Positions 9,498 through 19,634 of a stretch of 64,000 nt of DNA are shown piece by piece (within the stretch, counting starts at the first letter, position 1; each line of letters begins with the position of its first letter). The notes under the pieces were generated by a model. The model was not told where the DNA came from, did no database searches, and saw only the letters and a list, made by a program, of their open reading frames with translations. The position numbers were made by a program, and so were the translations under genes. Source of the DNA: Halothiobacillus diazotrophicus (GTDB taxonomy: Bacteria > Pseudomonadota > Gammaproteobacteria > Halothiobacillales > Halothiobacillaceae); assembly GCF_001663815.1 (NCBI RefSeq), contig NZ_CP016027.1, positions 2,790,501 through 2,854,500 on the forward strand, in the 5' to 3' direction.

Positions 9498-10004
9498 CCG
9501 ATACAGGCGACCACAAAAAGCTCAGTGGTTTCACGCGGCCTCGTTGGTGTGGTTAAGGTGGCTTGTAAAACCTGTTGTACCCGATTGGGTTGGTTCTGGC
9601 CGAAGCTGTCTATCGGGCATCGTATAATCGCCGCCGTTTTGCCTGCGATAAGGGATCGGCTTAACCATGGTGCCTGCGCGACAGGATGCGCGCAGGCCTT
9701 CAGCGATGGGTTCCAATGCGGATGTGTCATAGCGGAAGGCCACGAAGTGCGGCATCACGCCGTAACCAAGCTGATAGATAATGCCGTGGTTGATCGGGAA
9801 CAACGGGTCTTAAATTTCGCCGTCTACGGCGCGTGACGCGATACAGCTTGCCGGGAGGCGCACACGCTGGGTCTCTCCGGTTTGTCGAAGCGCTCGCTGC
9901 CTTAAAGTCTCCAAGAGGTTCCGTCCACTCTTGTGTTTGGGCTCGTATCGCGGACTTTCGCGTAAGGCGCTGTCCTGGCGCGGAAAATCAATCTTTCCTG
10001 GTTT
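9498..10004. other. 507-bp gap without a recognisable gene
   Basis: I see no gene that I can name here. A 9-bp perfect stem GCCTGCGCG (9672-9680) / CGCGCAGGC (9689-9697) with an 8-nt loop is the clearest structure, and TATAAT occurs at 9623-9628 without a good -35. A minus-strand open frame at 9531-9803 starts with a plausible protein stretch (GIIYQLGYGVMPHFVAF) but has only a TTG start, no ribosome binding site and a low-complexity end; it may be a decayed gene. The gap marks the junction between guaA and the accessory stretch to its right. Confidence 0.5.
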
Positions 10005-11030
10005 TTAATTCACCTCAATGACGATTTTGCCGAACGCACCTCGGTCGAGATGATCGAGTGCGTCAGGTAGTTCGGAAAAAGCATATCGAGCATCAATGAC
10101 TGGTTTGATGCCTAACCGGTCAATGGCGCCGATCATGTCTTCCAGGCTGCGGCGGTGGCCGACGCCGATGCCCTGGAGCGTCAGACCTTTGCGCAGCACC
10201 GGCCCGGCGGGGCCGGATATCTCGAAGCCGCCGAACACGCCGATGACGGAAATTCGTCCATTCACGGCTGCGGCTTCGATGGACCGTCCGAGATGCGTGC
10301 CGCCGATCGTTTCTAAAATATGGTCGGCGCCCTGGTCGTTCGTCAGTCGATAAACCGATTCAACCCAATCTTCGCTGAGACGATTGATGCCGTACGTGGC
10401 GCCGAGCATTTTTGCGCGTGCGATTTTATCGTCGCTTCCAGAGACGACTATGACGCTGGCACCGAGCGCCTTTGCTAACTGCAAACCGAAAATTGCCACG
10501 CCACCGGTGCCGTGCGTCAGCACGGTTTGCCCCGCACGCAGCGTTCCTCGTTCAACCAGTGCAAACCATGCGGTTAATGCGGCGCAAGGCAGGGTGCTGG
10601 CTTCGGCATCGTCCAGCGTGGCCGGTGCGTGAACCAGCCAATCTTCGGGAAAACAGACGTACTCGGCAAGGACGCCGGGATAGAGACCGCCAAGTGTTTT
10701 ATAGGGTGGGTTACGCGCCGTGCCGGTATTTCGGCCATCGATCCAGTCGGGAGAAAAGTTGCCAACGACCCGGTCACCGACTTGGAATCGCGTGTTGCCC
10801 CCTCCCACAGCTTCCACAACGCCGGCCATGTCGGATCCGGGTATGAAGGGAAACGTTAGCGCGAGACCCATGCCGTTTTCGATCACCAGTTTGTCGCGGT
10901 AGTTGAGTGACACGGCGGAGACTTTGACCAGGACTTCGCCCGCATTGGGCAAGGGGATCGGCAGCGTTGCCTGCGACAATCTGTTACGCCCCTTCTCGTC
11001 CATTCTCCAGCTATTCATTTTTGCATTCAT
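10005..11030 (-). CDS. MDR-family NAD(P)-dependent alcohol dehydrogenase / quinone oxidoreductase
   Basis: About 341 residues of the medium-chain dehydrogenase superfamily. The N-terminal GroES-like domain has GEVLVKVSAVSLNYRD and FIPGSDMAGVVEAVG; the Rossmann domain has the nucleotide-binding loop HGTGGVAIFGLQLAKALGA. The cysteine cluster of the structural zinc is absent, so it is closer to the zinc-independent quinone oxidoreductase group; the substrate is unknown. The ATG at 11030 has GGAG 6 bp upstream; an ATG at 11036 and a GTG at 11042 are alternatives. It is divergent from a LysR gene across 113 bp, so that regulator probably controls it. Base composition appears less GC-rich than the flanking housekeeping genes. 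Confidence 0.88.
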   Translation of the reverse strand: MNAKMNSWRMDEKGRNRLSQATLPIPLPNAGEVLVKVSAVSLNYRDKLVIENGMGLALTFPFIPGSDMAGVVEAVGGGNTRFQVGDRVVGNFSPDWIDGRNTGTARNPPYKTLGGLYPGVLAEYVCFPEDWLVHAPATLDDAEASTLPCAALTAWFALVERGTLRAGQTVLTHGTGGVAIFGLQLAKALGASVIVVSGSDDKIARAKMLGATYGINRLSEDWVESVYRLTNDQGADHILETIGGTHLGRSIEAAAVNGRISVIGVFGGFEISGPAGPVLRKGLTLQGIGVGHRRSLEDMIGAIDRLGIKPVIDARYAFSELPDALDHLDRGAFGKIVIEVN

Positions 11031-11143
11031 ATTCATCTCCACGAAATCGCATTTGACAGTCGAGACGACAATAACATTGCGCCAATGGAAACAGTGGCGA
11101 TAATATTTCGCTAGTTTGTTGCGAAAAAATATCCAATCAAGTC

Positions 11144-12052
11144 ATGCGCGATCATTTGGCCGGTATTTCGATTTTTGTCGAGGCGGTTGAGGCGGGGGGA
11201 TTTTCCGCCGCAGCCGAGCGACTGAATTTGTCTCGTTCGTCCGTGGGGAAAGCGATTGCACGACTGGAAGAACGGCTGGGTACTCGTCTGTTTCATCGCA
11301 CCACACGGAGCACGATGTTGACCGACGATGGCAATGCTTATTACGAGCATTGTCTTCAAGCCCTGGAGGCGATTCGTGCAGGAGAAGCTATGCTCGAGTC
11401 CGGCCGACACACTGTCAGCGGCAGAGTACGGATTTCGATGCCGGTATTATTCGGCCGTTATTGCGTAGTGCCGATATTGGTCGGGTTGGCTCGCCGATAC
11501 CCAGAACTCGAACTGGAGCTCAGTTTCAGTGACAAACTGGTTAACTTGGTCGAGGACGGATTCGATCTGGCAGTGCGTAACGGGCCGTTGGATCATGCGG
11601 CAGATCATTTAATCGCCCGCAAGATTGCCCGTCAGCATATGGTTGTTTGTGCCGCACCATCGTATGTTGAGCGACATGGTCAGCCCGAGTGTATCGAGGA
11701 TCTCGGCATGCATGGCATCGTTGCCTACGGCTGGTCCGGCTACACGTCCACATGGCGGTTTCCAAAACCAGGTAGGGAGTCGGCCGTGATGTTCAAACCC
11801 CAGGCAAGGCTGAAACTGGATGATCTCGAAGCCATTGCCGATCTGGCATCTCAAGGTATGGGGCTTGCTTGGTTGCCGTATTGGCTGGTCAAAGCGCGTA
11901 TCCAGTCCGGCACGCTGGTCCCGGTACTCGAGCATCAACCGGGTTTTGTCATGGAATCGTATGCCCTTTGGCCGCAAACGCAGAGTTTGCCGTTCCGTCT
12001 GCGTGTTGTCGTCGATGCGCTTTCGAGTGAACTTCCCAAGGTAATGGCTTGA
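11144..12052 (+). CDS. LysR-family transcriptional regulator
   Basis: A 302-residue LysR protein. Residues about 5-62 are the winged helix-turn-helix (GGFSAAAERLNLSRSSVGKAIARLEERLGTRLFHRTTR). Residues about 90-295 are the periplasmic-binding-like effector domain, with the usual GRVRISMP start and VEDGFDLAVRNG. Its gene is divergent from the MDR oxidoreductase, the typical position for a LysR activator of that gene. The effector is unknown. The stop codon lies inside a 16-bp tandem duplication, and no strong Shine-Dalgarno is visible at the ATG. Confidence 0.92.
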   Translation: MRDHLAGISIFVEAVEAGGFSAAAERLNLSRSSVGKAIARLEERLGTRLFHRTTRSTMLTDDGNAYYEHCLQALEAIRAGEAMLESGRHTVSGRVRISMPVLFGRYCVVPILVGLARRYPELELELSFSDKLVNLVEDGFDLAVRNGPLDHAADHLIARKIARQHMVVCAAPSYVERHGQPECIEDLGMHGIVAYGWSGYTSTWRFPKPGRESAVMFKPQARLKLDDLEAIADLASQGMGLAWLPYWLVKARIQSGTLVPVLEHQPGFVMESYALWPQTQSLPFRLRVVVDALSSELPKVMA

Positions 12053-12072
12053 CCGGGTAATGGCTTGACGGG
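12041..12072. repeat. 16-bp tandem duplication across a lysR stop codon
   Basis: Two copies of GTAATGGCTTGACCGG (12041-12056 and 12057-12072, one mismatch). The first copy contains the last codons and TGA of the LysR gene, so the duplication probably arose by slippage at the 3' end without changing the protein. Confidence 0.85.
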
Positions 12073-12076
12073 GCGT

Positions 12077-12988
12077 TTAAACCTTCAGCGATTGCATCCC
12101 TGGTAATTGCGGAATTCGCGCCGCCATGAAGTCCAGAAATGAGCGGACTCTTTGCGGCTGATAGCGGCGAGACGGATATACCAGGTGAACCGCTTGTGCA
12201 GGCAGACGCCACGCCGGGAGAACACGAACGAGGGATTCGTTCTCGATCAAGTCCTGCACGAGCCAGGCGGGCACGGATCCCAAACCCACACCCTCAAGAA
12301 AGCATTGGCGCAGGGCGAGCGAGCTGTTGACGCGATAGCGCCCGTGGAGCGAAACCCTAACCACTTCTTGCGCGCGGGAGAATGCCATTTCATGTCCTGA
12401 TGCTATGCCGGCATAGCGAAGGTACTCATGTTCGGCCAGATCTTCGGGTTTGGTGATCCGGGCGGATCGAACGATGTATTCGCGCGCGGCGACCAGCACG
12501 CGCGGGGACGTGGCAATTTGAGGCGCAACGACGTTGGGTGGAAGATCATCGCCGAGTCGGATGGCCACATCAACGCCTTCTTCAACCAGATCGATGATTC
12601 TATCGTTGAGAATTAATTCAATTTCAATCTGTGGATGTAAGGCAAGAAACTCGATAACCAGACTATTCAGGCGCAATTCGCCTAATCCGACAGGCGCATT
12701 CACGCGCAAAGTTCCCGTTAGCTGCCGAGTCTGACCGCGCACTTCTGCAACGGCGCCGGCATACTCTTCAAGTACGATCTTACTGCGCGCATAGAAGCGC
12801 TTGCCTTCCTCGGTTGGCGTCAAGTGCGTGGTCGACCGCTCAAGCAACCTGACCCCTAAACGCGCTTCGAGCGCTGCAATCACCTTGCTCATCGTCGGTT
12901 GGCCGATATTTTTCTCCCGCGCGGCCGCGGAAAAACTCCCCAGTTCAATGACGCGGTTGAACATCCGCATGGATTCGAGCGTGTCCAT
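12077..12988 (-). CDS. LysR-family transcriptional regulator
   Basis: A 303-residue LysR protein starting MDTLESMRMFNRVIELGSF. The N-terminal winged helix (residues about 3-60: SFSAAAREKNIGQPTMSKVI) is followed by the effector domain (TGTLRVNAPVGLGEL, then VEEGVDVAIRLG). It belongs to the CrgA/DmlR-like group by its overall pattern. It is convergent with the preceding LysR gene and divergent from the SDR gene across 105 bp, which makes the SDR its likely target. The inducer is unknown. Confidence 0.92.
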   Translation of the reverse strand: MDTLESMRMFNRVIELGSFSAAAREKNIGQPTMSKVIAALEARLGVRLLERSTTHLTPTEEGKRFYARSKIVLEEYAGAVAEVRGQTRQLTGTLRVNAPVGLGELRLNSLVIEFLALHPQIEIELILNDRIIDLVEEGVDVAIRLGDDLPPNVVAPQIATSPRVLVAAREYIVRSARITKPEDLAEHEYLRYAGIASGHEMAFSRAQEVVRVSLHGRYRVNSSLALRQCFLEGVGLGSVPAWLVQDLIENESLVRVLPAWRLPAQAVHLVYPSRRYQPQRVRSFLDFMAARIPQLPGMQSLKV

Positions 12989-13093
12989 CCTATTCTCCTT
13001 TGGAATGAGTTATAGGGCGATTATCGGCATTCTAAGGTTAAAAGGAATGAGATAACTTGCCCCCGTCTACCAACATTCCGCTGAGGAACCCCC

Positions 13094-13828
13094 ATGAATA
13101 TTGCACAAACATCATCATTCCATGGCCGCCATATCGTTGTGTTTGGCGGAAGTTCGGGGATCGGATTGGCGACGGCAAAAGCACTGAAAACACAGGGAGC
13201 TAACGTCACCATCGTGGGGCGAACGCTTGAGAGGCTCCAGACTGCCGCAGATCAAATTGGCGGCGCCCGATACGCTGTAGCCGATCTTGCAGACAGAAAA
13301 TCCATCGAAGCGATATTCGATGATACGACGCAGGTTGATCACCTGGTTATCACCGCGGGCGGCATACATGCCGGCAAACTGGTCGACTCTGATCCTGAAA
13401 AGTTGCTGTCCGAAGTTAACGAGCATATTTCCGGATCGCTCTATGCGGTTAAAAGCGTTATCCCTCGGATGCCCGGTACGGGTTCGATCGTTTTGATGGG
13501 TGGGCAGTTTTCGGACCGCCCCACGGGCGATGGCACGTCGGTCATGGCGTTGGCTTGCCGTGGGATCGAGGCGCTGGCCCGCGGGCTTGCGCTTGAAATC
13601 AAACCGATTCGCGTTAACGTAATCGCGCCGGGTTTCGTCGATACCCCGCTCTATGATGCATTCGGTGCCGAGGGTCGTGCCGCATTACTGGCTCATGCGG
13701 CCGGTAGCTTGCCCATTGGCCGCATTGGCCGACCGGAAGAAATCGCCGATGCAATCAGTTTTCTCCTGAGTAATGAATACATGAATTGCGAAGTGCTGCA
13801 TATCGACGGCGGCGGGCGATTTGCCTGA
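13094..13828 (+). CDS. SDR-family protein lacking the canonical YxxxK
   Basis: A 244-residue short-chain dehydrogenase/reductase fold. The cofactor loop is GGSSGIG (residues 18-24), VADLADRKSIEAIF follows the usual acidic turn, and the C-terminus has IRVNVIAPGFVDTPLYD and the closing HIDGGGRFA. Where the catalytic Tyr-x-x-x-Lys is expected, the sequence reads SVMALACRGIEAL, with neither Tyr nor Lys, and the catalytic Ser region is MGGQFSDRP. A clade of SDR proteins is known to have this region replaced, so it may be a different enzyme or a binding protein. GAGGAA precedes the ATG. It is divergent from a LysR gene. Confidence 0.85.
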   Translation: MNIAQTSSFHGRHIVVFGGSSGIGLATAKALKTQGANVTIVGRTLERLQTAADQIGGARYAVADLADRKSIEAIFDDTTQVDHLVITAGGIHAGKLVDSDPEKLLSEVNEHISGSLYAVKSVIPRMPGTGSIVLMGGQFSDRPTGDGTSVMALACRGIEALARGLALEIKPIRVNVIAPGFVDTPLYDAFGAEGRAALLAHAAGSLPIGRIGRPEEIADAISFLLSNEYMNCEVLHIDGGGRFA

Positions 13829-13950
13829 ACCGGTACATCCCAATGATTCAGCGTTGATGGGCCGGGCCGCTACCGACAGTTCCTCGGCGATCATCGTTCG
13901 TGAGGTCTCCGTGGCCAGCAAGGTGTCATGGTTACATCGCGCTCATGCCA

Positions 13951-14274
13951 TCATTCTTTCTGCCGCATCGCTGCTGTCAGCAGCGTGAGTAGAAGGATCG
14001 CGATGGCACAGATGCTTGAGGCGGCGGCAAATCCCGTCACGAAAGCATCTCGCGCCTGTTCAAGCAAACCGGTCGGTAATGCGTGTGCCTCCGAAATGGC
14101 ACCCGTCAGGCTGTCCGCCACCACGCCTTGAACGTCAGGGGGCAACCCGCTGGGCAGTTGGGCCGTGATACGCAGGCGGTAGACCGTACTGGCCAGACTC
14201 CCTAGGGTGGCGATGCCGATTGCCAGCCCCAGCTCCTGCACCATCTCCGATAGCGCCGAATGGCGAAATAGCAC
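13951..14274 (-). pseudogene. C-terminal remnant of an MFS (DHA2-type) drug exporter
   Basis: The 107-codon open frame matches the last part of an EmrB/QacA-type 14-helix transporter: SALSEMVQELGLAIGIATLGSLASTVYR is the usual helix 11-12 motif region, followed by an extracellular loop (LPSGLPPDVQGVVADSLTG) and a final helix (GFAAASSICAIAILLLTLLTAA). The first roughly 350-400 residues expected for the family are missing; upstream of about 14275 the homology stops. The only start is GTG with no ribosome binding site. I read it as a truncated gene from a deletion. Confidence 0.75.
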
Positions 14275-14703
14275 AGTACGGCATCAGTGCGGTCGAAAAT
14301 GCCGATGGCGGGCGCATGGACGTACAACATGAGACGCTGGTGGTTGATCCGCATCGGCATCTGAAAATGGTGGTGTACTTCGCAGCATTGGGCAATCACT
14401 GATGTAAAGCTTGTCTGCCTTCCGATCCTGTTACCGCACATGACTCACCCGTGGGCAGTGGATTGCTTCCGCTGAACATCATCAGGGCATTTTAGGTATT
14501 CCTGAGTGGTTGCTGGACTCGGGTGACAAAGGATGTTGACCTTCCCGATATGATTATTTATTTCTGGCTTTTATCCTGGGTCATTGTCCGGCAGACGGAA
14601 GTACTCTGTCATGTTTGGATAGGGTGGTATTCACGGTCATCTCTACCTGTGGTGACCAGTAAGTCTTTGAAGTTAAATATTATGATGGTTGGTCTGTAAT
14701 CAA
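14275..14703. other. Gene-poor junction upstream of tadA, possible gene fragment
   Basis: No complete gene is recognisable. On the plus strand the frame ending at the TGA at 14400-14402 has about 45 codons of protein-like sequence (ISAVENADGGRMDVQHETLV, then VVYFAALGNH) that may be the 3' end of another lost gene, abutting the MFS remnant head to head. From 14403 to 14703 I see only AT-richer DNA with no clear structure; the tadA promoter must lie here but no convincing -35/-10 pair stands out. Confidence 0.4.
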
Positions 14704-15192
14704 ATGGAAATTCCCGACGCACGGCCCGGTAAGATGTTGAGGTCTCGTGATCGCAACTTCATGCAGCAGGCCCTGGATGAGGCGCGGCATGCCGCCGCAG
14801 CCGGTGAGGTGCCCGTTGGCGCCGTGCTGGTGCGGGACGGTGCGGTGATCGCCCGGGGGCACAATACGCCGATTGGCGACCACGACCCCACGGCCCATGC
14901 CGAGATTCGCGCCCTGCGGGCCGCCGGGGCTGCGCTGGGCAACTACCGGCTGGATGGTTGTACCCTGTACGTCACGCTTGAACCCTGTCCGATGTGTCTG
15001 GCGGCGATGACCCATGCCCGAATCGACCGGGTCGTGTATGCCGCACCCGATCCGCGGGCCGGAGCCTGCGGCGGGGCGATCGACCTCAACCGGGCACCCT
15101 GGCACCACCACCCGCTGGTGATCGACACCGGCCCTTGCGAGCAGGAGGCGGCTGAACTGTTGCGGACCTTCTTCGAGGATCGGCGCGACTGA
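14704..15192 (+). CDS. tadA: tRNA-specific adenosine deaminase
   Basis: Deaminates A34 to inosine in tRNA-Arg(ACG), an essential wobble modification. The 162-residue protein has the zinc deaminase signature HAE (H65, E67) and PCPMC (C95, C98), with NYRLDGCTLYVTLEP as in the family. The ATG at 14704 gives a length like the E. coli enzyme; an ATG at 14734 (MLRSRDRNFM) is also reasonable and would give 152 residues. No partner genes of the usual tadA context are present. Confidence 0.93.
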   Translation: MEIPDARPGKMLRSRDRNFMQQALDEARHAAAAGEVPVGAVLVRDGAVIARGHNTPIGDHDPTAHAEIRALRAAGAALGNYRLDGCTLYVTLEPCPMCLAAMTHARIDRVVYAAPDPRAGACGGAIDLNRAPWHHHPLVIDTGPCEQEAAELLRTFFEDRRD

Positions 15193-15300: not shown

Positions 15301-16683
15301 TCAGCCCGGAACGAAGTATTCCCCGGGCGCTGGTCGGGAAAGAAACCCCTGGGGCGAAGCGCTGGCGCCATAGGCTCCGGACTGGAGTACGCCGACAACA
15401 TCGCCCGGTTGCAGTATCGGCAGGGCCTGGTTCTGACCCAGTACATCGAGCGGCGTGCACAGCGGCCCGGCCAGATCGACGGTCTCGCTGTGCGGCTCGT
15501 CCATCTGCGCGATGGCCACGATCGGCCAGTTGCGCCGCAACACCTGACCCAGGTTCCCCGACAGCGCGAGATGGTGATGCATGCCGCCGTCGCACATCAG
15601 GTAGATCTTGCCGCGGGAGGTCTTGCGGTCGACGATCCGCGTGACATAGATGCCCGCCGCGGCGACGAGATATCGTCCCAGTTCCAGATTCACCCGTACG
15701 CCGGTCCAGGCCTGCTGGGCGTCGGCGCCGATTTCGGCCAGGACGGGTTTCAGGGCCGCGAGGTCCAGCGGGGCGTCCTGCGGCTGGTAGACCACGCCGA
15801 ACCCCCCTCCGAGGTTGAGGTGGCGGGGCATGAATCCCGTCTGCCGTGTCCAATCCTGCACCAAAATCAGGGATTGGCGCAGCGTGGCGGCGATGGCCTC
15901 GGCCTGGCGGTTCTGCGAACCGGCGAACAGGTGAAACCCTTCAAGAGCGAGGTGATCCCGAAGCGTGGCGTCGGTGCGGATGCGTTCGATCAGCGCCGGA
16001 ATCGCCTCGCTGTCGATGCCGAAAGGCCGGGCACCGCCGCCCATTTTCATGCCGGCGCCCTTGAGCTCGAAGGGCGGATTGACGCGCAGGGCCACCCGGG
16101 CGCGCTTCCCGAGAGACTGTGCTACATCGGCGACTCGCTGCAACTCCCCTGCGGATTCGATATTGATGAGCACGCCGTGCGAGATGGCGAACCGGTGCTC
16201 GTCTGCGGATTTGGCCGGTCCGGCGATGCTGGTCTGTGCCAGGCGCGCCGGGGCGAGTTCGGCGACCCGTTGCATCTCGGCCAGGGAGGCGCAGTCGAAA
16301 CCATCGACCTGGGTGGCGAGGTGGCTGATGACCGGCGGAAACGGATTGGCCTTGATGGCGTAATGCAGATGGATCGTGCCCGGCAGGACGGCCCGCACGG
16401 CCTGAACCTGAGCGCTGATCGCGGCGCCGTTATAGATATAGGCCGGCGTGGCAGGCTGCGCCTGATGGTTGAGCCAGTCGACGGCGGATTCGCCGGCAAG
16501 ACACAGGCCCCGATCATCGATCTGCCAGGCGGCTGCCGCACCGCCCAGGGTTTCGGCGAGTAGCTGGCGTCCCGTGATGGGTGCCATGGACCCGGTTTCT
16601 TTGGACCCGGCTTCTTTGGACCCGGCTTCTTTGGACAGGTTTTCCTTAGACATGCTTTCTCGGGACCCGGTTTCATTGGGCAT
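15301..16683 (-). CDS. PLP-dependent decarboxylase, exosortase-A-associated type
   Basis: A group IV (LysA/ornithine decarboxylase fold) enzyme of up to 460 residues. The N-terminal TIM barrel has the PLP lysine in HYAIKAN (K111), the phosphate loop LGGGFG (291-296), and the C-terminal barrel carries the active-site cysteine in GPLCTPLD (C409) and GAYGASAS. The overall pattern matches the decarboxylases found beside exosortase A loci. Residues 1-32 are a repetitive (GSKEA)n-like tail encoded by a 15-bp tandem repeat, so Met11 or Met33 may be the real start. The first ATG overlaps the 3' end of the ligase gene by 11 bp, so translation is probably coupled. The amino acid substrate is unknown. 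Confidence 0.85.
   Translation of the reverse strand: MPNETGSRESMSKENLSKEAGSKEAGSKETGSMAPITGRQLLAETLGGAAAAWQIDDRGLCLAGESAVDWLNHQAQPATPAYIYNGAAISAQVQAVRAVLPGTIHLHYAIKANPFPPVISHLATQVDGFDCASLAEMQRVAELAPARLAQTSIAGPAKSADEHRFAISHGVLINIESAGELQRVADVAQSLGKRARVALRVNPPFELKGAGMKMGGGARPFGIDSEAIPALIERIRTDATLRDHLALEGFHLFAGSQNRQAEAIAATLRQSLILVQDWTRQTGFMPRHLNLGGGFGVVYQPQDAPLDLAALKPVLAEIGADAQQAWTGVRVNLELGRYLVAAAGIYVTRIVDRKTSRGKIYLMCDGGMHHHLALSGNLGQVLRRNWPIVAIAQMDEPHSETVDLAGPLCTPLDVLGQNQALPILQPGDVVGVLQSGAYGASASPQGFLSRPAPGEYFVPG
16588..16677. repeat. 15-bp tandem repeat (about six units) in the decarboxylase 5' end
   Basis: Six consecutive 15-bp units. The units at 16603-16617 and 16618-16632 are identical (GGACCCGGCTTCTTT), the one at 16588 differs by one base, and three outer ones are diverged. 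Being a multiple of three, copy changes lengthen or shorten the (GSKEA)n N-terminal tail without a frameshift. Confidence 0.9.
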
Positions 16684-18316
16684 GGCGAGCGCCTCCCTCG
16701 TCCTTGGATGATTGTTCGGTCAGAAACTGTGCACGGGCGGCATGACGATCGAGTTTGCCATTGGCGGAGCGCGGCAGTTCGTCCCGGCAGCGAATGGCAT
16801 CGGGTTGCTGGTAGGGGGCGAGCGCCTGTTTCAGCCAGCGGGCGAGTTCGGTCGTCGGGACGGGTGGCGCCACCATCAGGCCGATGGCATCGGGGGCATC
16901 TGGCGGGGCATCAGGGCCATCCGAGGGCGTGTAGCCGAAGGCAAGAGCTTCATGGACGCCGGAAAACTGCAGTGCCGCCGCCTCGATCTCTTCGGGGCTG
17001 ACGCGAAACCCCTGGTGCTTGATCTGATCGTCCAGCCGGCTCACGAAATACAGTCGGCCCTCGGCGTCGCGGCGAACCCGATCCCCCGAAAAGACGACAC
17101 GATGATCCGCCGGATTCGGCCAGCCGGCCGGCGGCATCCGAAAACGTTCGGCAGTGGCGGCCGGGTCGTTGAAGTAGCCGGCCGTCACCAGGGGACCGCC
17201 CTGGATCAACTCGCCTTCCGCCGCGACGTTCTCGGGGTACAGATGGCCCTGTTCGTCCACGAGACCCAGGGTCGTTTCGGGGAAGGCCCGGCCGATCGAG
17301 TCCGGGTGCGCATCCGTTTCGTCGGGGGGGAGGAAGCTGGCACGAAAGGCTTCGGTCAGCCCGTACATCAGGAACAGCCGGGTCGCGGGCAGGGCGCTGC
17401 GGATGGCCTGGACTGAGGAAACGGGGAGGCGCCCGCCCGAATTGGTGAGGTTGCGCAGCTGCGGACAGTCCGGCAGCCAGGCTTGCCGGGACAGGGGGAT
17501 CAGCAATCCGGGCGTGCCGGCGAGCAGGGTGATGCCACCTTGCGTCAGCGGTTTTTTCAGGTCGTTGGGCAGCAGGTAGTCCTGCAGATGGATGCCCGCG
17601 CCGACGGTCAGAGCCGTGGTGATCTGGGAGAGTCCGTAATCGAAGGACAGCGGCAGGATGGACAGCACCTCGTCGTCTGCCGTCATGCCCAGATAATCGG
17701 CGACGGCCCGTGCCCCCAGGGTCAGATTCGCCCGGGTCACCATCACGCCCTTGGGCTGACCGGTGCTGCCGGAGGTGTAGAGCAGGGCGGCCAGTGCGTC
17801 GGGGCGCACTCCGGTCGCTGGCGCGAAAGGCGTGCGGTCGTTCGCTGGGGTGACGATGTCGTGGTGGGTGTCCACACGGGTTGTAAAAGGGGTCAGCATG
17901 CCATCCGGGGAGGTGCCGTATCCGAGTGTGCCCGCCTCGGTCTCCGTCGCGTCGAACGCGTCGGTCGAGAGGGTCAGGGCTTGTGCATGCGCCCTGTCGA
18001 CAATCAGGCCCCGTGCCTCGGCGCGCTGGAAGATTTGACGGAGCTGGGCCGGGCGCAATGCGGGGTGCAGGGGCACGAAGACGATGCCGGCAGCCAGGGC
18101 GGCCAGCAGCATGATGACGGTTTCCGGCCGCTTGTTGGCCCAGATCAGCAGACGATCGCCTGGTTGTAGTCCGTGATCGATCAGGCGGGCCGCGGTCTGC
18201 CGGATGCGCTCGGCCAGTGCGCCATAGGCGATGGATTGCTGCCCGTGGCGCAGGGCGATACGGTCTGGCGCCAGAGCGGCAACGTGATGAAGTCGGTCGA
18301 TCAGATCGGGGGGCAT
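16673..18316 (-). CDS. AMP-forming acyl/aminoacyl ligase, exosortase-A-associated type
   Basis: A 547-residue member of the ANL adenylating enzyme superfamily. It has the P-loop YTSGSTGQPKGV, the A5-type motif MYGLTEAFRASFLPP, YFNDPAATAERF, the hinge GDRVRRDAEGRLYFVSR, and the C-terminal lysine in SANGKLDRHA. Start MPPDLIDRLHHVAALAPDRIALRHG matches ligases (peptide synthetase adenylation-like) that accompany exosortase A clusters. It should activate a carboxylate as an adenylate; the substrate and acceptor are not evident, and no acyl-carrier gene is adjacent. The frame is open far upstream, but homology begins at the ATG at 18316. It is divergent from aroC and overlaps the decarboxylase gene downstream. 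Confidence 0.85.
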   Translation of the reverse strand: MPPDLIDRLHHVAALAPDRIALRHGQQSIAYGALAERIRQTAARLIDHGLQPGDRLLIWANKRPETVIMLLAALAAGIVFVPLHPALRPAQLRQIFQRAEARGLIVDRAHAQALTLSTDAFDATETEAGTLGYGTSPDGMLTPFTTRVDTHHDIVTPANDRTPFAPATGVRPDALAALLYTSGSTGQPKGVMVTRANLTLGARAVADYLGMTADDEVLSILPLSFDYGLSQITTALTVGAGIHLQDYLLPNDLKKPLTQGGITLLAGTPGLLIPLSRQAWLPDCPQLRNLTNSGGRLPVSSVQAIRSALPATRLFLMYGLTEAFRASFLPPDETDAHPDSIGRAFPETTLGLVDEQGHLYPENVAAEGELIQGGPLVTAGYFNDPAATAERFRMPPAGWPNPADHRVVFSGDRVRRDAEGRLYFVSRLDDQIKHQGFRVSPEEIEAAALQFSGVHEALAFGYTPSDGPDAPPDAPDAIGLMVAPPVPTTELARWLKQALAPYQQPDAIRCRDELPRSANGKLDRHAARAQFLTEQSSKDEGGARHAQ

Positions 18317-18533
18317 GATGTGCCTATGAAATGCGTCTGGGTAATGTGCTTGGGCCGCGGGATTCCGGGGGATGGTTCGTGGTGTTGGATCGCGCAAGAG
18401 CCGGGCCGGGCTCGGGATGCGTATAATGGGTGGAATTCTAACACGTGGCCGCTCGTGCTCCCGTTGAATCGCCCGGCATCTCCTCCGGTCGGGCAGGGGG
18501 CGGGCGGCCGCCACTTCGACGCGATGGAAAACT

Positions 18534-19634
18534 ATGTCTGGCAATACCTTCGGCAAACTGTTCACGGTCACGACCTTCGGCGAATCCCATGGCCTGGCGC
18601 TGGGGGCGATCGTCGACGGCTGCCCGCCCGGCCTGCCGCTGACCGAGGCCGATCTGCAGATCGATCTGGATCGTCGTAAACCGGGCACGTCACGCCACAC
18701 CACGCAGCGGCGCGAGCCGGACAGCGTGCGGATTCTCTCCGGCGTGTTCGAGGGCAAGACGACGGGCACGCCGATCGGGCTGCTGATCGAGAACGTCGAC
18801 CAGCGCTCGCACGATTACGGCAAGATCGCCGATCAGTTCCGCCCCGGCCACGCGGATTACACCTACCTGCAGAAATACGGTATCCGCGACTATCGGGGCG
18901 GCGGGCGTTCCTCGGCGCGGGAAACGGCGATGCGGGTGGCGGCCGGGGCCATCGCCCGCAAGTGGCTGCGCGAGAAGTTCGGCGTCGAGATCCGGGGGTA
19001 TCTGTCGCAACTCGGCCCGATCACGCCGAAGGTGTTCGACTGGTCGGTGGTGGATCAGAATCCGTTCTTCTGGCCCGATGCCGCACAGGTGCCGGAACTG
19101 GAGACGTTCATGGATGAGCTGCGCAAGTCCGGCGATTCCGTCGGCGCGCGGGTCTCCGTGGTGGCGACCGGTTGCCCGCCGGGCTGGGGGGAGCCGATCT
19201 TCGACCGGCTGGATGCGGAGCTGGCCCATGCCCTGATGAGCATCAATGCGGTGAAGGGCGTGGAAATCGGTGACGGCTTTGCCTGCGTGGCCGCGCGCGG
19301 TACCGAGTTCCGGGACGAAATGACGCCCGAAGGATTCCTGAGCAATCATGCTGGCGGCATCCTCGGCGGGATTTCCAGCGGGCAGGACATCGTGGCGCAT
19401 ATCGCGCTGAAGCCGACGTCGAGCATCCGACTGCCCGGCCAGAGTCTGGACCGGAGCGGGGCTGCCACCGAGGTGATCACGACCGGCCGGCACGACCCCT
19501 GCGTTGGTATTCGCGCAACGCCCATTGCCGAGGCGATGATGGCGCTGACCCTGATCGACCACGCCCTGCGCCACCGTGGCCAGTGCGGCGACGTGCATAC
19601 TGATACGCCGATCGTTCCCGCTTCCGTTCGCTGA
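18534..19634 (+). CDS. aroC: Chorismate synthase
   Basis: Converts 5-enolpyruvylshikimate-3-phosphate to chorismate with reduced FMN, the last step of the shikimate pathway. The 366-residue protein has all three family signatures: [20 protein letters not shown] at the start, [20 protein letters not shown] in the middle, and [17 protein letters not shown] near the end. GGAAA lies just before the ATG. TATAAT at 18422-18427 in the divergent region may be the -10, but no matching -35 is visible. The downstream transporter starts 6 bp after the stop. Confidence 0.98.

Follow-up and report, generated by a model that had tools for sequence, protein, structure and literature searches.

An exosortase-free ligase/decarboxylase pair of Halothiobacillus diazotrophicus with a distant carrier gene and a possible role in beta-alanine supply

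A ligase/decarboxylase gene pair between tadA and aroC

The window analysed here is a 64,000-nucleotide stretch of the Halothiobacillus diazotrophicus chromosome (G000:C1:2790501-2854500). G000 denotes the window's own genome, a single contig of 2,908,964 bp that is 99.99% complete; other G numbers denote the genomes compared with it, and L numbers denote genome stretches. The window contains an overlapping gene pair on the minus strand. The first gene (16673-18316) encodes an ANL ligase of 547 aa, the second (15301-16683) encodes a pyridoxal phosphate (PLP) decarboxylase of the alanine-racemase fold with 460 aa, and the two overlap by 11 bp (16673-16683, minus strand). tadA (14761-15192, plus strand) is convergent to the decarboxylase gene, while aroC (chorismate synthase; 18534-19634, plus strand) is divergent from the ligase gene; both names come from sequence recognition, for aroC with no profile search. 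This arrangement, described in an initial annotation of the window, is borne out by the coordinates of the open reading frames (ORFs). The pair probably forms two thirds of a three-part system that would activate aspartate on a carrier protein and decarboxylate it there; the candidate for the third part is encoded behind serS, far from the window.

No other family models come close to TIGR03098 (ligase) and TIGR03099 (decarboxylase), the family types named in the initial annotation, although the pair misses both curated cut-offs. Specifically, the decarboxylase scores 471.4 bits with TIGR03099, 7 bits short of the cut-off of 478.45, and the ligase scores 464 bits with TIGR03098, for which the cut-off is 592.35; each is the best NCBIfam model for its protein. 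In five Halothiobacillaceae genomes of g2/g3, TIGR03099 matches reach 555–577 bits, above the curated cut-off. An ordinary diaminopimelate (DAP) or ornithine decarboxylase, named earlier as the finding that would speak against this assignment, is ruled out: the lysA profile gives 213.6 bits, far under its cut-off of 297.9, and a separate lysA-like gene (TIGR03099 212.8 bits) is located at G000:C1:2128851-2130017. The ligase, for its part, is a stand-alone protein.

The same two models describe the pair in exosortase A loci, where it is accompanied by a carrier and the hydrolases hydr1 and hydr2. Unlike those loci, the window system scores below both cut-offs, lacks an exosortase and any hydr2 match above 35 bits, and has its carrier gene split off. 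Sequence identity to aligned relatives outside the Halothiobacillus/Guyparkeria group is 36–43% for the ligase and 39–51% for the decarboxylase.

The ligase resembles VinN and the decarboxylase resembles BtrK

VinN is the best PDB match to residues 150-400 of the ligase (3WV4/3WVN, E 6.8e-35) and the best single-domain PDB match to the full-length protein (E 8.6e-56); multi-domain gramicidin synthetase chains, which sum several stretches, stand above it in the full-length search. Ligase residues D226, S293, and R325 align with VinN D230, S299, and R331 (counted along the chain, offset 16), so the window ligase has the complete VinN-type set of Asp, Ser, and Arg. In the accessible parts of PMC7756342 and PMC11253843, these residues are described as the ones that recognise (methyl)aspartate through its amino and carboxyl groups. 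Among 44 aligned ligases longer than 430 aa (one frame containing N left out), the equivalents of D230 and R331 are kept in 44/44 and that of S299 in 42/44. Two other VinN residues are replaced in the window ligase, K330 by F and F231 by Y. The structure model has a pLDDT (predicted local distance difference test) of 82.8, and its fold search indicates the ANL superfamily only, which is not discriminating. From its likeness to VinN, the window ligase is predicted to be an aspartate:carrier-protein ligase that acts on the side-chain carboxyl.

BtrK is the best PDB match to the decarboxylase by both sequence (E 3.4e-61) and fold (E 4.5e-34), followed by SbnH and then by DAP decarboxylases. The two proteins have the GPLCTP motif in common, and K111 of the window decarboxylase, presumably the PLP lysine as in the rest of the family, is invariant in 16/16 aligned sequences. 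The model has a mean pLDDT of 84.9, with low confidence for residues 1-32. Close to the start codon, 6.2 copies of a 15-bp tandem repeat (16587-16679, minus strand) encode an SKEAG-type N-terminal extension, which is modelled with low confidence and not seen in 15 aligned relatives. The enzyme is predicted to decarboxylate carrier-bound aspartate. The earlier idea of an adenylating enzyme and a decarboxylase working on an amino acid was right. A further TIGR03099-like decarboxylase (239 bits) is encoded in an operon common to two Halothiobacillaceae genomes, G021 (L060 8197-9378) and G018 (L061 8577-9758), possibly a siderophore cluster.

We propose the conversion of aspartate to a beta-alanyl-carrier because homologous systems, VinN/VinO, AfcQ/AfcK/AfcP, and BtrK, provide precedents. 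According to the accessible part of PMC11284099, the carrier VinL of the vicenistatin pathway is charged with 3-methylaspartate by VinN, and VinO decarboxylates the amino acid while it is attached to VinL. VinN/VinL/VinO thereby share with the window system a stand-alone adenylation enzyme, a stand-alone carrier, and a PLP decarboxylase acting on a carrier-bound amino acid, besides the D230/S299/R331 equivalents. They differ in belonging to an actinobacterial polyketide cluster and in their 3-methylaspartate substrate, whereas the window genes have no polyketide partner beside them and the carrier gene lies behind serS. Two further comparable systems are AfcQ/AfcK/AfcP (AFC-BC11) and BolO/BolC/BolN (bolagladins). 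The published accounts, as far as their text is accessible, describe proteobacterial VinN-type ligases with a carrier and a decarboxylase that turn L-Asp into a beta-Ala-type unit. AfcQ/AfcK/AfcP are reported to convert L-Asp to beta-alanine on the carrier in vitro, with up to three repeats, while the role of BolO/BolC/BolN is a proposal of its authors. Both systems lie in lipopeptide biosynthetic clusters, whereas the window trio lies in no cluster. BtrK, which works with BtrI in butirosin synthesis, is the nearest solved structure to the window decarboxylase. It differs from the proposed window system in its glutamate substrate and in serving an antibiotic side chain.

These likenesses also leave room for the same logic with another substrate, namely glutamate giving a gamma-aminobutyryl-carrier as with BtrK, or 3-methylaspartate giving a 3-aminoisobutyryl-carrier as with VinN. 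BtrK, the best decarboxylase match, acts on glutamyl-BtrI (carrier-bound glutamate), VinN's own substrate is reported as 3-methylaspartate, and VinN K330 and F231 are not kept in the window ligase. However, the VinN-type AfcQ is reported to activate L-Asp, which is a common metabolite, and the anticorrelation with panD described below fits aspartate. Another substrate is therefore improbable, and we retain aspartate as the proposed one.

A dedicated carrier protein is encoded behind serS

The initial annotation had found no carrier-protein gene and suggested a free-standing two-enzyme pathway. The absence holds for the surroundings of the pair in the window; it does not hold for the genome. 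G000 encodes a 92-aa protein with the phosphopantetheine serine in a PELDSM motif (G000:C1 about 725230-725508), the gene of which starts 4 bp ahead of the end of serS. Seven PF00550 matches are present in G000, six of them above the cut-off, and one of the seven is this 92-aa carrier of the exosortase-locus type. Specifically, carriers in exosortase-type loci have ~80–90 aa and the motif PE[FL]DSM and are found alongside two hydrolases and the pair; seven such carriers encoded in other families share 36–43% identity with the G000 carrier.

A profile built from carriers of the exosortase-locus type, the G000 carrier included, has matches in 59/80 genomes: 25/25 Halothiobacillaceae genomes, 0/12 genomes of the same class without the pair, and 34/43 other genomes with the ligase (the G235 match is weak). 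In all 25 Halothiobacillaceae genomes and in G170, the carrier gene stands directly behind serS in the same orientation. G019 has serS, the carrier gene, the pair, and aroC next to one another; in G170 these genes fit into ~12 kb, with the carrier at most 7 kb from the pair. Because these two genomes keep all the genes together, they suggest one ancestral serS-carrier-pair-aroC cluster that was split later. In G277 (L189 4188-5688) and G345 (L192 2769-4261), the carrier gene adjoins the decarboxylase gene and the ligase gene is elsewhere; the trio has therefore also been split in other ways.

A free-standing pathway would act on a free or CoA-bound substrate without any carrier. Consistent with it, the carrier gene in G000 is 2.08 Mb from the pair by coordinates; if the chromosome is a circle, the distance in the opposite direction is 0.83 Mb. 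Yet the carrier is of the exosortase-locus subfamily, is present throughout the family, is absent from all 12 pair-less genomes, and lies next to the pair in G019 and at most 7 kb from it in G170. We thus consider a carrier-free pathway very improbable and the carrier-bound system the better description of the pair.

G007 has a 53-aa degenerate carrier-like fragment (L170 658-819) ~3 kb from its intact serS-linked copy. In G000, an aryl-polyene-like cluster (L102 8168-19501) includes two small carriers of another type, and a second stretch (L103 1606-10679) encodes a 2553-aa polyketide synthase-like protein, followed by an alpha-oxoamine-synthase-like protein.

Genomes with ligase and carrier tend to lack panD

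In Halothiobacillaceae, panC is present in 25/25 genomes and panD in 0/25, the pattern expected if PanD has been replaced. G000 has folK-panB-panC (named through sequence recognition), and no PF00282 decarboxylase, the second known type besides PanD, was found in it. Elsewhere in the family, clear PF00282 matches are present only in G005; a single match lies at the cut-off in G002, and one falls short of it in G011.

Our class sample comprises 369 genomes, with panD in 240 and panC in 321. Among the panC-bearing genomes, panD is missing in 25/37 with ligase and carrier, in 1/10 with the ligase and no or a weak carrier, and in 60/274 ligase-free genomes. Fisher tests give p=5e-8 and p=0.0026. 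When each of 158 families is represented by a single genome and only panC-bearing genomes are counted, panD is missing in 11/17 versus 25/118 (p=0.0005). PF00282 matches above the cut-off are lacking in 21 of the 25 panD-less trio genomes and present in 11/25 of the panD-less, ligase-less genomes tested (of 60). G144, the single panD-less genome with a ligase and no carrier, has strong PF00282 matches.

Contrasts within families mostly fit. In f108, G131 has the trio and no panD, while G247 has panD and no ligase; f129 (G152 vs G265, G360), f142 (G277 vs G165, G372), and f18 (G041 vs G297) fit as well. f135 does not, as G158 has the trio with panD and G365 has neither ligase nor panD.

A proposed route from aspartate to beta-alanine

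In the proposed route, the ligase would use ATP to adenylate the side-chain carboxyl of L-aspartate and would load it, as a side-chain thioester, on the phosphopantetheine arm of the serS-linked carrier. The PLP decarboxylase would then strip the free alpha-carboxyl as CO2, leaving a beta-alanyl-carrier. Homology makes these two steps probable. In a third step, beta-alanine would be released and converted by PanC to pantothenate and then to coenzyme A (CoA), in place of the missing PanD. The evidence for this last step is correlative, and we see about even chances that the trio supplies beta-alanine for pantothenate and CoA in this organism. PanD and its PF00282-type replacements also turn aspartate into beta-alanine, as proposed for the trio. 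However, PanD is a pyruvoyl enzyme that acts on free aspartate, whereas the trio would use ATP, a carrier, and PLP.

Several points weigh against the proposal. The window pair misses both curated cut-offs, and VinN is absent among the 50 matches listed when the complete ligase model is compared by fold. The link between trio and panD is partial, because 12/37 genomes with ligase and carrier keep panD and 60/274 panC-bearing genomes without the ligase, lacking panD as well, live without the trio. Five panBC loci were inspected and have no trio gene nearby, and the candidate release enzyme, the hydr2 hydrolase, has no match above 35 bits in Halothiobacillaceae. The beta-alanine routes searched were panD and PF00282; other routes are uracil breakdown and transaminases, and one of this kind is shown for Rhizobium etli in the accessible part of PMC7142369.

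The same chemistry might also have another destination, with the beta-alanyl-carrier or an oligo-beta-alanyl chain decorating an envelope glycan, a lipid, or a secondary metabolite, which may also happen in exosortase/EPS loci, and the loss of panD compensated otherwise. In exosortase-type loci the trio stands among glycan genes with two hydrolases, panD is kept in 11/27 exosortase-bearing genomes with ligase and carrier, and AfcQ is reported to iterate to (beta-Ala)n in vitro. In Halothiobacillaceae and G170, by contrast, the trio is found by serS and aroC and not in a biosynthetic cluster, and the absence of panD from all 25 family genomes also speaks against decoration. We regard this destination as unlikely, though less so than a different substrate, and keep beta-alanine supply as the working proposal.

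More broadly, we tentatively suggest that the exosortase A-associated ligase/decarboxylase/carrier set may be an ATP-driven, carrier-bound route from Asp to beta-alanine that replaces PanD in several gammaproteobacterial families, with the form in exopolysaccharide loci as a second use. The proposal gives a widespread pair of undefined product a specific candidate product, the beta-alanyl-carrier, and a carrier encoded elsewhere explains how exosortase-free genomes carry the pair. It also offers a possible source of beta-alanine in panD-less, panC-bearing bacteria such as Halothiobacillus. If true, this would be a new way to start CoA synthesis, with the oddity that beta-alanine synthesis would need a phosphopantetheine carrier itself derived from CoA. 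A literature search combining exosortase and beta-alanine found nothing related; we make no wider claim on the literature.

Conservation of the pair and its surroundings

TIGR03099 matches above 425 bits are present in 23/25 Halothiobacillaceae genomes; in G001 the match is split over two contigs, and none was found in the draft of G013. The pair is conserved and not a product of chance. aroC was called beside it in 18/24 family stretches, from Halothiobacillus, Guyparkeria, and two further genera; the remaining six have no aroC called, some being cut by contig ends. G170, of another family, has the order decarboxylase-ligase-(96-aa ORF)-aroC-MFS (major facilitator superfamily), as in Halothiobacillaceae, and aroC is in the flank of 6/80 named loci, all matching Halothiobacillaceae genomes. 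aroC is a conserved neighbour of the ligase gene, outside the pathway. A promoter is expected in the space between the two genes (18317-18533, no strand assigned), in which no sigma-70-type consensus was found.

The initial annotation had seen no exosortase gene, and this extends to the complete own genome: PF09721 and TIGR03109 each have 0 matches in G000. No PEP-CTERM or glycan genes are among the ORFs in view; a genome search for these was not made. Weak PF09721 matches (34–39 bits) occur in G002, G010, and G022 of the family. In the class sample, TIGR03098 is matched at E <= 1e-130 in 52/369 genomes. TIGR03109 is absent from 14 of these 52, and 8 of the 14 have a ligase above the curated cut-off; the pair without exosortase is not rare in the class. 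Within the stretches covered, 4/80 named loci have an exosortase-like gene. G039, which has an exosortase, encodes a pair of paralogues with tails of the PEP-CTERM-like kind directly behind the ligase/decarboxylase pair (L058 11405-13346).

Six class ligases of 430–504 bits (G354, G210, G333, G364, G213, and G075) were dropped before counting because they are 31–34% identical to the window ligase and their stretches contain no decarboxylase relative. G016 was added despite missing the E cut-off, as the pair is plain in L048. An apparent natural ligase-decarboxylase fusion in G008 (L041) was ruled out, the open frame crossing a stretch of N.

In a tree of ligase and decarboxylase from 40 genomes (FastTree, midpoint root), most Halothiobacillaceae form one clade with support of 0.999. 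G170, three g3 genomes, G277, and G220 are placed near the base, all exosortase-free and panD-less, and all panD-bearing members fall inside the exosortase-type part. Because the root is uncertain, with support of 0.084 at one deep node, we claim no direction of change.

Upstream of tadA, the ~5 kb from guaA (9498-14760) contain a quinone-oxidoreductase-like gene, two LysR-like genes, and a short-chain dehydrogenase/reductase-like gene. This segment looks like an insertion of the window's own lineage, because the guaA-tadA gap is only 26 bp in G005 (L038).

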